From contig NZ_SMGI01000003.1 of assembly GCF_004346845.1 (NCBI RefSeq), positions 62,001-126,000 of the forward strand: a stretch of DNA of 64,000 bases. Direction: 5' to 3'. Position 1 is the first letter of the stretch, and each line of letters starts with the position of its first letter. The translations under genes and the position numbers were made by a program. The notes below the pieces were generated by a model. The model made no database searches, was not told the DNA's origin, and saw only the letters and a list, made by a program, of their open reading frames with translations. This DNA is from Winogradskyella wandonensis. Lineage in GTDB: Bacteria; Bacteroidota; Bacteroidia; Flavobacteriales; Flavobacteriaceae. This document shows positions 28,608-29,134 of this stretch, piece by piece.

Positions 28608-28641
28608 AAAAAAAGCCAGAGTTTTCACTCTGGCTTTTTTT
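28608..28641. terminator. bidirectional intrinsic terminator
   Basis: Stem AAAAGCCAGAG / CTCTGGCTTTT with a 6-nt loop; A-run before and T-run after. It can end both the small membrane protein gene (plus) and the tRNA-Pro transcript (minus). Confidence 0.9.
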
Positions 28642-28677
28642 GTCGGGGTGGTCACGCTTTTTGGCGTGACGACCTCC
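28641..28677 (-). repeat. tRNA-Pro 3'-end remnant with hairpin in place of the T-arm
   Basis: In the tRNA sense it reads GGAGGTC, then the hairpin GTCACGC-CAAAAA-GCGTGAC (28651-28670), then CACCCCGACA, the tRNA-Pro acceptor end. It shares TGTCGGGGTGG (plus strand) with the intact tRNA exactly 40 bp away and carries the same hairpin stem as the displaced copy at 29003-29078. Confidence 0.75.
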
Positions 28678-28682
28678 AAATG

Positions 28683-28757
28683 TCGGGGTGGCAGGATTCG
28701 AACCTGCGACCTCCGCGTCCCAAACGCGGCGCGATAACCGGGCTACGCTACACCCCG
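28683..28757 (-). tRNA. tRNA-Pro (anticodon TGG)
   Basis: A complete cloverleaf on the minus strand. The acceptor stem is CGGGGTG / CACCCCG, the anticodon stem-loop has TTTGGGA in the loop with anticodon TGG, and the T-arm is GCAGG-TTCGAAT-CCTGC with discriminator A. The 3' CCA is not encoded (the genome reads ACA). It decodes proline CCN codons. The 5' end overlaps the last 10 nt of the GIY-YIG gene, so RNase P must cut within or right at that coding region. No separate promoter is visible; transcription probably comes from 29104-29134. Confidence 0.95.
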
Positions 28758-28759
28758 AA
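28707..28759 (-). repeat. 53-bp perfect direct repeat, copy in the intact tRNA
   Basis: These 53 bp (tRNA 5' end to the variable region) are identical to 29028-29080, 321 bp away. The repeat pair flanks the GIY-YIG gene. Identity ends sharply at the T-arm on one side and just beyond the tRNA 5' end on the other. Confidence 0.9.
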
Positions 28760-28990
28760 GTAGTTATCTAAATATCGTTTTGCTCCTCTCTTCTTAATTC
28801 TCTTTTCTAAGACCATAGCCTCAGAGCGACCTTCTACCTCTATCTGCAAAACTAATTCCCAAGGTATACCCAACTTTGTTGATGGAACCTTTCCTTGGTT
28901 ATGTCTTTTAAATCTTTTTTCGATATCTGAAGTTTGACCTACATAATATCTAGAACGTGCTTTACTAAAAAGTATATATACTACATACAT
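28748..28990 (-). CDS. GIY-YIG nuclease embedded in the tRNA-Pro locus
   Basis: An 80-residue stand-alone GIY-YIG endonuclease domain of the small UvrC/URI-like type. The VYI at 4-6 and YYVG at 15-18 form the GIY-YIG pair, Arg26 follows in IEKRFKRHN, and Glu62 in LEKRIKK is the metal-binding catalytic residue, so it looks active. The last codons (Phe-Gly-Val-stop) are made from the first nucleotides of tRNA-Pro; the TAG stop is tRNA nucleotides 8-10. The gene lies between two copies of the tRNA 5' region and likely belongs to a mobile unit. RNase P cleavage at the tRNA would remove its stop codon. Confidence 0.9.
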   Translation of the reverse strand: MYVVYILFSKARSRYYVGQTSDIEKRFKRHNQGKVPSTKLGIPWELVLQIEVEGRSEAMVLEKRIKKRGAKRYLDNYFGV

Positions 28991-29002
28991 AACTTATTTT
29001 TA

Positions 29003-29078
29003 GTGGGTGGTCACGCTTTCAGCGTGACGACCTCCGCGTCCCAAACGCGGCGCGATAACCGGGCTACGCTACACCCCG
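29003..29078 (-). pseudogene. displaced tRNA-Pro-like copy with T-arm replaced by a hairpin
   Basis: On the minus strand it has the complete 5' acceptor strand, D-arm, anticodon arm (TGG) and variable region of tRNA-Pro, identical to the intact gene. The T-arm is replaced by GTCACGCT-GAA-AGCGTGAC (29010-29028), and the 3' acceptor strand is altered at two positions (CACCCAC). No TTCGA T-loop exists, so it cannot be a normal tRNA. It stands directly downstream of the only good promoter of the locus and 12 bp upstream of the GIY-YIG ATG. Confidence 0.8.
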
Positions 29079-29080
29079 AA
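29028..29080 (-). repeat. 53-bp perfect direct repeat, displaced copy
   Basis: Partner of 28707-28759; identical over all 53 bp. Confidence 0.9.
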
Positions 29081-29103
29081 TATTGGTTATCATTTTCGGA
29101 CTG

Positions 29104-29134
29104 CAAATATATACAAATTACAAGGTTAACCAAA
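29104..29134 (-). promoter_or_regulatory. promoter of the tRNA-Pro / GIY-YIG locus
   Basis: On the minus strand TTTG (29134-29131), 19-bp spacer, TATATTTG (29111-29104): both Bacteroidota promoter elements at the right spacing, the best promoter in the window. It points into the displaced tRNA-like copy, about 25 bp downstream. Confidence 0.65.

Follow-up and report, generated by a model that had tools for sequence, protein, structure and literature searches.

The 64,000-nucleotide stretch of the Winogradskyella wandonensis genome analyzed here (hereafter the window, from whose first base the feature coordinates are counted) contains a single tRNA gene, tRNA-Pro(UGG), which is embedded in a compact arrangement of features on the minus strand. 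Along this strand a promoter-like box is followed by an altered copy of the tRNA (hereafter tRNA*), the gene for a small GIY-YIG nuclease, the intact tRNA-Pro(UGG), a remnant of a tRNA 3' end and a terminator-like inverted repeat (Table 1). The two tRNA copies share a perfect 53-bp direct repeat with a spacing of 321 bp, which consists of two leader bases and tRNA positions 1-51. The anatomy reported in the initial annotation of this DNA, namely an 80-codon GIY-YIG gene, the 53-bp repeat, an intact tRNA-Pro(UGG), two hairpins and a terminator-like repeat, was recovered in its entirety.

Table 1. Features of the tRNA-Pro(UGG) locus in the order of the minus strand, with the two copies of the direct repeat listed last
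Feature	Coordinates	Strand	Remarks
Promoter-like box (TATATTTG / TANNTTTG)	29104-29111	minus	upstream of the altered tRNA copy
tRNA*, altered tRNA-Pro copy	29005-29078	minus	tRNA 1-51 intact, hairpin for T arm, CACCC kept
Hairpin GTCACGC-TGAAA-GCGTGAC	29010-29028	minus	at the T-arm place of tRNA*
GIY-YIG nuclease gene, 80 aa	28748-28990	minus	ORF and PF01541 match
Intact tRNA-Pro(UGG)	28682-28757	minus	ARAGORN
3' tRNA remnant	28642-28677	minus	GGAGGTC, GTCACGC-CAAAAA-GCGTGAC hairpin, CACCCCGAC
Terminator-like inverted repeat	28608-28641	minus	with T run
Proximal 53-bp repeat copy	28707-28759		2 leader bases and tRNA 1-51
Distal 53-bp repeat copy	29028-29080

The promoter-like box is one that we take to be of the Bacteroidota type. 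The same loose motif is matched again within the nuclease gene, at 28847-28854, and the intact tRNA may therefore possess a promoter of its own in addition to the upstream one. The upstream tRNA copy had initially been described as a displaced 5' part of the gene, and a tRNA copy is indeed found there; however, rather than a bare 5' part it is an almost complete tRNA in which one arm has been exchanged. As the acceptor stem keeps its 3' strand, CACCC, mainly the T arm was replaced and the copy comprises more than the 5' two-thirds of the tRNA. By minimum energy it folds into a cloverleaf in which an 8-bp stem occupies the place of the T arm, and its score with the Rfam tRNA model (29005-29076, minus strand) is 27.7 bits, just below the cut-off of 29. 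The fold z-score of tRNA* is only -1.5, versus -2.0 for the intact tRNA, and neither the acceptor stem nor the D stem is formed in its centroid fold. The hairpin of the 3' remnant (28651-28670) has the same stem as that of tRNA* and a different loop. A dispersed palindromic repeat was rejected as the source of these hairpins, because the pattern GTCACGC-N3..8-GCGTGAC has just two matches in the 2.96-Mb genome, both at this locus.

The last codons of the nuclease gene (DNYFGV) fall on tRNA leader-like sequence and the 5' end of the intact tRNA, and its stop codon is the TAG at tRNA positions 8-10, which is conserved in the tRNA. The intact tRNA is identical to a second, unoccupied copy in the same genome (G000:C1:714322-714397, where G000 is the window's genome). 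This genome also holds a distant GIY-YIG relative (L058; G000:C5:92001-92225) located 109 bp behind tRNA-His on the same strand, and no copy of the tRNA was detectable at that locus.

The nuclease and its association with tRNA genes

The window protein matches the PF01541 GIY-YIG domain with E=1.3e-15, and residues Y5, Y16, G18, R26 and E62 are invariant among 15 aligned rows. The conserved Tyr, Arg and Glu of the GIY-YIG domain are catalytic, and their presence along with the domain match places the predicted protein in the GIY-YIG nuclease superfamily. It is a bare GIY-YIG domain without a DNA-binding part. An AlphaFold2 model (pLDDT 96, pTM 0.84) is closest in fold to the UPF0213 protein BH0048, the sole match at E<=0.001, followed by Slx1 and, with a weaker resemblance, I-TevI. 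By sequence, too, the nearest solved structures are UPF0213 (1zg2, 1ywl) and Slx1, with 1zg2 also being the nearest by fold. The nuclease is under purifying selection: dN/dS relative to the window copy ranges from 0.12 to 0.30 (18 rows, excluding the misaligned L108 and L109; synonymous sites are near saturation in several). Searches of NCBIfam, PHROG and PADLOC recovered weak motif matches only, with the PHROG homing endonuclease matches falling inside the GIY-YIG domain. A phage or plasmid origin of the unit was rejected, since the protein has no match at E<=1e-3 among 50,697 phage records or among plasmids; three matches on viral contigs span only 30 residues.

GIY-YIG matches at E<=1e-10 are present in 205 of the 397 genomes of the family. 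In the 98 best-ranked loci among the matches listed (down to about E=1.4e-19), a tRNA lies within 200 bp of the nuclease gene in 84, always on the same strand (84/84), and seven of the remaining 14 have a same-strand tRNA at 201-498 bp. A phylum-level survey, which shares two loci with the family set, gave a comparable picture, with a tRNA within 200 bp at 24 of the 29 top loci, all on the same strand. Low-scoring GIY-YIG homologues mostly lack a neighboring tRNA (15/18), although this is not a clean control, as the other 3/18 lie behind tmRNA. The latter (L013, L014, L028) follow a same-strand tmRNA at a distance of 150-161 bp, and perhaps display the same habit at the tmRNA 3' end. An Rfam recheck of 20 loci, most of them without a clear tRNA, revealed weak tRNA-like matches beside the nuclease in L111, L002 and L151. 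At the locus L046 (G011:C1:540500-545500) there are seven GIY-YIG copies in tandem, each about 381 bp long; the units bear a hairpin and a terminator-like repeat, and no tRNA was recognized near this array.

The tRNA-adjacent loci are of two types. In the five-prime type the altered copy lies upstream, and the nuclease gene reaches into the intact tRNA or stops just short of it, whereas in the three-prime type the intact tRNA, often with a terminator, is followed by the nuclease gene and then by a 3' copy. Judged by the nearest tRNA, the family set includes 65 loci of the five-prime and 19 of the three-prime type (two of these 19 being Pro units cut by contig ends beside tRNA-Ser), and the phylum set 7 and 17, respectively. 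The proposal that the unit reverses the 3'-end polarity usual for elements at tRNA genes thus applies to the window and most family loci, but not to the three-prime loci of the two sets. An automatic comparison detected a partial copy of the same tRNA past the nuclease gene at 118 of 139 tRNA-adjacent loci, and in 93 of these 118 a hairpin replaces or interrupts an arm of the copy; at L009, L057, L059 and L060 the copy may be a neighboring Val tRNA, and without them there are 114 partial copies and 91 hairpins. The corresponding figure for tRNA flanks without a nuclease gene, for which longer flanks were used, is 13/145, about half of them chance 7-mer pairs. No partial copy was detected at 21 of the 139 loci, including 6/8 of the His loci.

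The position of the hairpin differs between units. In Pro-UGG units it exactly replaces the T arm; in units of Pro-GGG, Pro-CGG and some Asn, Asp and Val tRNAs it exactly replaces the anticodon arm (28/29-44/45); and in many Arg, Ala and Met units it is inserted between tRNA positions 22 and 23. The tRNAs with partial copies are specific for ten amino acids, namely Ala, Arg, Asn, Asp, His, Leu, Met(CAT), Pro, Ser and Val, with His (two loci, 14 bases only) and Ser (one locus) being the thinnest. A unique accident at a Pro tRNA was rejected, as the arrangement recurs at many tRNA isotypes and in many relatives; what had appeared to be a peculiarity of tRNA-Pro is instead a phylum-wide family. 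With duplicates excluded, 65 of 81 copies of the five-prime type have the nuclease stop codon within the tRNA, 42 of them as TAG at positions 8-10 and 19 as TAG at 21-23. The tRNA-SeC genes called by ARAGORN at L009 (1411-1490) and L057 (1413-1490) look like Val copies with a swapped anticodon arm, and are likely to be an annotation trap. The units may account for spurious tRNA-like calls of this kind beside nuclease genes in Bacteroidota genomes.

The nuclease clades match the tRNA isotypes. On the nuclease tree (160 rows and 77 columns, with many forks unresolved; 21 duplicate or overlapping loci and rows of fewer than 60 residues omitted) the tRNA amino acid requires 25 changes versus a shuffled mean of 79 (minimum 72), the anticodon 40 versus 96 (minimum 89) and the polarity 17 versus 38 (minimum 29; n=135 in each case). 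The nuclease DNA of L038 and L101 is identical, and these might represent a single organism counted twice.

Unoccupied sites, repeated units and the probable mobility of the unit

A search of named genomes yielded 15 loci, with a tRNA nearby in 13 (the exceptions being L043 and L045, the latter from another phylum). At eight of them (L031-L038), from Winogradskyella, uncultured Dokdonia and Croceitalea, Arenibacter and other Flavobacteriaceae, the Pro-UGG unit is organized as in the window, and three of these eight have tandem copies. The initial annotation expected the unit to recur as GIY-YIG genes that end in a tRNA 5' end behind a partial copy bearing the GTCACGC hairpin, and such genes are present in other genomes. 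The 5' tRNA copies listed for Pro-UGG genomes (19 genomes searched) end at tRNA position 51 in 23 of 27 cases, and at 71-72 in the other four (G318, G431). Among 60 relatives, and within the matches listed, an extra tRNA-Pro fragment with the same end point as in the window is confined to the two genomes that have the Pro-UGG unit, G000 and G013, which agrees with the suggested linkage of the nuclease to the tRNA duplication.

Some of the six hairpin places without a strong nuclease match that were inspected count against a stricter form of this linkage. The genomes G182 and G256 have decayed nuclease genes within the unit; in G289 the unit is truncated by a contig end, with the start of the nuclease visible; and G357:C32 has 3' remnants at a contig end. 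The remaining two are G279:C141, with two units lacking the nuclease gene and a nuclease copy on C9, and G386, with the 3' hairpin remnant alone and no nuclease among the matches listed. We read these last two as products of decay, though they speak against strict linkage. Two tandem Pro units without the nuclease gene, with a nuclease copy elsewhere in the genome, are seen in L140 (950-1390) and might be a non-autonomous form.

Unoccupied counterparts of the site, which may be ancestral or may have lost the unit, were also found. In G007 (L075) the orthologous promoter flank runs straight into an intact tRNA-Pro and the unit is absent, providing the relative with a promoter directly before an unoccupied tRNA-Pro gene that had been sought. 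Likewise, in G010 (L077) the trxB-side flank adjoins the tRNA directly, and the 3' hairpin remnant is absent. Next to the occupied site of the window, L075 and L077 provide its unoccupied alleles, as in homing endonuclease genes; a patchy distribution and decayed copies, both traits of such genes, are also seen in the unit. The unoccupied site and the other Pro-UGG units lend support to the earlier proposal that nuclease and tRNA copy form a linked unit by which the 5' part of the tRNA is made anew. At L086, L093 and L075 there are tRNA fragments by intact tRNAs without a nuclease gene, which might be scars of lost elements. In the Pro-UGG clade, where the last codons of the nuclease gene fall on the tRNA leader, a leader motif, GAT[AG][AGC]C, occurs at 18/23 occupied and 20/28 unoccupied sites, and in none of 46 other tRNA leaders at the loci of this clade. 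The motif fits the capture of the leader as the last codons of the nuclease, but could equally be a scar of loss.

Several genomes have more than one tRNA-Pro locus affected. Units are present at both tRNA-Pro loci in G318, G306 and G389, while the second locus is nuclease-free in G279 and broken by contig ends in G235 and G270. The two loci of G318 share 382 bp at 97%, with the shared stretch ending one base past the tRNA 3' end on one side and, upon coordinate conversion, inside tRNA* on the other. The remaining pairs are 76-89% identical (G389, G235, G306), and are older, apart from that of G270 (99% over 271 bp). A tandem arrangement is found at 34 of 162 loci. The tandem arrays, the decayed and nuclease-free copies and the 97%-identical copies at two tRNA-Pro loci all point to mobility, which we consider well supported by these genome comparisons; the most likely route is copying of the homing type. 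The G318 pair, however, could also result from gene conversion between paralogous loci, with no need for homing into an unoccupied site.

The tandem arrays and decayed copies might also be explained without any mobility, if the nuclease gene originated next to a tRNA and ordinary tandem duplication and decay left the tRNA copies behind as a side effect. This is very unlikely, given the involvement of tRNAs for ten amino acids, the unoccupied orthologous sites, the occupation of both tRNA-Pro loci within one genome, the precision of the arm swaps and the patchy presence of the unit: the pattern GTCACGC-N3..8-GCGTGACCAC occurs in only 17 of the 397 family genomes, and the reversed control in none (0/397), which also places its recurrence well above chance. 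Another explanation is a benefit to the host, with the cassette amplifying tRNA genes or defending the cell, e.g. against tRNA-cleaving enzymes. Several arrays contain tRNA-like copies, the GIY-YIG motif weakly and partially matches candidate defence models, and amplification of tRNA-Tyr by SegB is reported to aid the escape of phage T6 from Septu (PMC13096335). However, the amplified copies are arm-swapped and unlikely to be functional tRNAs, and copies of the nuclease are seen decayed, making a host benefit very unlikely.

The exchanged hairpin and a possible mechanism

In Pro-UGG units the stem of the hairpin is exact in 21 of the 25 loci found via the protein, alongside loops of 14 forms. 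Stem identity is 0.99 versus 0.46 for the loop (20 loci), and versus 0.59 for the third codon positions of the adjoining nuclease gene (19 rows). The hairpin class also tracks the nuclease tree, with 22 changes versus 52 on shuffling (minimum 46; n=89), the classes being our own loose patterns with 13/89 assigned to 'other', and one class is common to Arg, Ala and Met units. The conservation of the stem, together with this tracking, favors a role of the hairpin in cis over mere decay, although palindromes common in the host are a possible confounder of the class signal. Tandem arrays of about 40 bp, made up of the hairpin-bearing tRNA-Pro 3' remnant, are seen in L032 (3310-3450), L034 (3305-3400) and L142 (1000-1094); those of L032 and L034 lie behind the tRNA.

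Taking these features together, we consider it probable that the unit is a minimal single-gene mobile cassette that inserts copies of itself, by a homing-type process, into tRNA genes of the kind it occupies, restoring the tRNA as it does so. The unit consists of the altered tRNA copy, in which one arm has become a hairpin, the GIY-YIG gene, and the leader and 5' part of the tRNA; as it sits in a tRNA gene of its own isotype, a complete tRNA remains alongside. The nuclease would break an unoccupied tRNA gene, or a single-stranded or cruciform form of it, at or close to the arm exchanged in the altered copy, and repair of the break would copy the unit in, with leader and tRNA sequence providing the homology. 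The same breaks might give rise to the tandem arrays. The swapped hairpin would be a cis element of the nuclease, either a protected or erased site or a binding site, and would leave the altered copy foldable yet useless as a tRNA. The mirror-image three-prime type would act likewise at the other end of the tRNA, often bringing a terminator. We count against this homing cassette the absence of a DNA-binding part in the nuclease, and the loci without a nearby tRNA (14/98) or without a partial copy (21/139).

The main difficulty is posed by five genomes (G000, G160, G431, G137 and G270), each of which carries an open, intact-looking nuclease gene along with an identical intact tRNA-Pro that, among the matches listed, has no adjoining nuclease or tRNA fragment. 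Free double-strand cutting would be self-harming in such genomes, and, as the rebuilt tRNA of the window is also not recoded, cutting must be rare, regulated or limited to a special form of DNA. For this reason we retain an alternative, unlikely as it is, in which mobility is driven by the hairpin: the nuclease would recognize its cognate hairpin in single-stranded DNA, such as the lagging strand or incoming DNA, and single strands of the element would anneal to tRNA sequence, the target tRNA arm being a mere look-alike of the hairpin. The exact stems of the Pro-UGG units despite their varied loops are consistent with such recognition, as are the tracking of the nuclease tree by the hairpin class, even across Arg, Ala and Met units, and the proximity of the protein to UPF0213 and to the branched-DNA nuclease Slx1; single-strand-specific GIY-YIG nucleases of the Ssn family offer a biochemical precedent. 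On the other hand, the hairpin is absent from the intact target tRNAs, the unit encodes no joining enzyme, and the loosely defined hairpin classes, with their 13/89 'other', could mirror palindromes common in the host.

The recurrence of the unit at many tRNA genes across Bacteroidota suggests, on the genomic evidence, that it is a selfish element of minimal size, entering essential tRNA genes but leaving a working tRNA. In its broadest form this becomes a tentative, though quite possible, proposal: a phylum-wide and previously undescribed class of Bacteroidota selfish elements of about 300-490 bp, with clades bound to one or a few tRNA isotypes, that enter the bodies of essential tRNA genes, rebuild the tRNA from either end, often end their own gene on the conserved UAG of the tRNA and mark the displaced copy by exchanging a whole arm for a clade-specific hairpin, in effect a natural home-and-rescue drive on tRNA genes. 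If this is true, the unit would be an unusually small selfish element residing inside essential tRNA genes without breaking them, and a natural counterpart to engineered home-and-rescue drives. It also offers a directly testable system for target finding by a bare 80-residue GIY-YIG domain.

Comparison with known systems

No description of bacterial tRNA-linked GIY-YIG units was found in the literature searched, which consisted largely of freely accessible papers; the portion of a GIY-YIG survey that was available does not mention such units (PMC1564403). Among solved structures UPF0213 (1zg2, 1ywl) is the closest to the window protein. The low-scoring GIY-YIG homologues in the relatives, which may include UPF0213 members, differ from the unit in lying mostly away from tRNAs (15/18). 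The Ssn family comprises small GIY-YIG single-strand nucleases with cognate short hairpin-bearing repeats, and in this combination of a small enzyme and hairpin-bearing repeats it resembles the unit; to our knowledge, tRNA units are not part of its description.

Integrative elements with tyrosine integrases use tRNA 3' ends and restore the tRNA gene. The unit is similar in that a tRNA gene is its site and is restored, but it differs in being about 320 bp long, in having no second gene, in occurring as both five-prime and three-prime types and in acting within the tRNA body. An integrase element was rejected for the window, since no ORF other than the GIY-YIG gene lies between the two tRNA copies on the minus strand, and the repeat corresponds to tRNA 1-51 rather than to an att site at the 3' end.

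A closer parallel in design is seen in mobile ORFs of fungal mitochondria, described in PMC3630166 as comprising an endonuclease and a substitute gene end, with the displaced native end lying beyond the ORF, at atp6 of Allomyces and at atp6, atp9, cox2 and nad3 of Glomus. The combination of nuclease, replacement end and displaced end (118/139 loci) is shared with the unit, as a likeness of design and not of common descent. The fungal ORFs, as far as that text describes them, occupy protein genes, affect 3' ends only, are mostly LAGLIDADG enzymes and supply an end differing in DNA sequence (PMC3630166), whereas the unit occupies tRNA genes, is found at both ends and places a hairpin on the displaced copy. 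A sequence-divergent supplied end of the fungal type was not found in the window, where the supplied tRNA is identical to the second genomic copy and not recoded.

The phage T4/T6 protein SegB, a free-standing GIY-YIG homing endonuclease, resembles the unit in being tied to tRNAs and in its tandem amplification. T6 SegB is reported to cut within tRNA genes with the preferred motif RAWTSGAAC, and the tandem amplification of tRNA and segB depends on the nuclease; segB occurs near tRNAs of many isotypes in phages (PMC13096335); and T4 segB lies between tRNA-Arg and tRNA-Ile, with the tRNA intergenic region as its target (PMC2988022). In our reading the SegB motif resembles the T-loop complement. 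SegB differs in being phage-borne, and the portion available describes neither a cassette with a partial tRNA copy nor an arm-swap hairpin (PMC13096335). We regard its cutting of tRNA genes and the accompanying tandem amplification as a precedent for the homing cassette, which, if true, would tie SegB-type tRNA amplification in phages to bacterial chromosomes.
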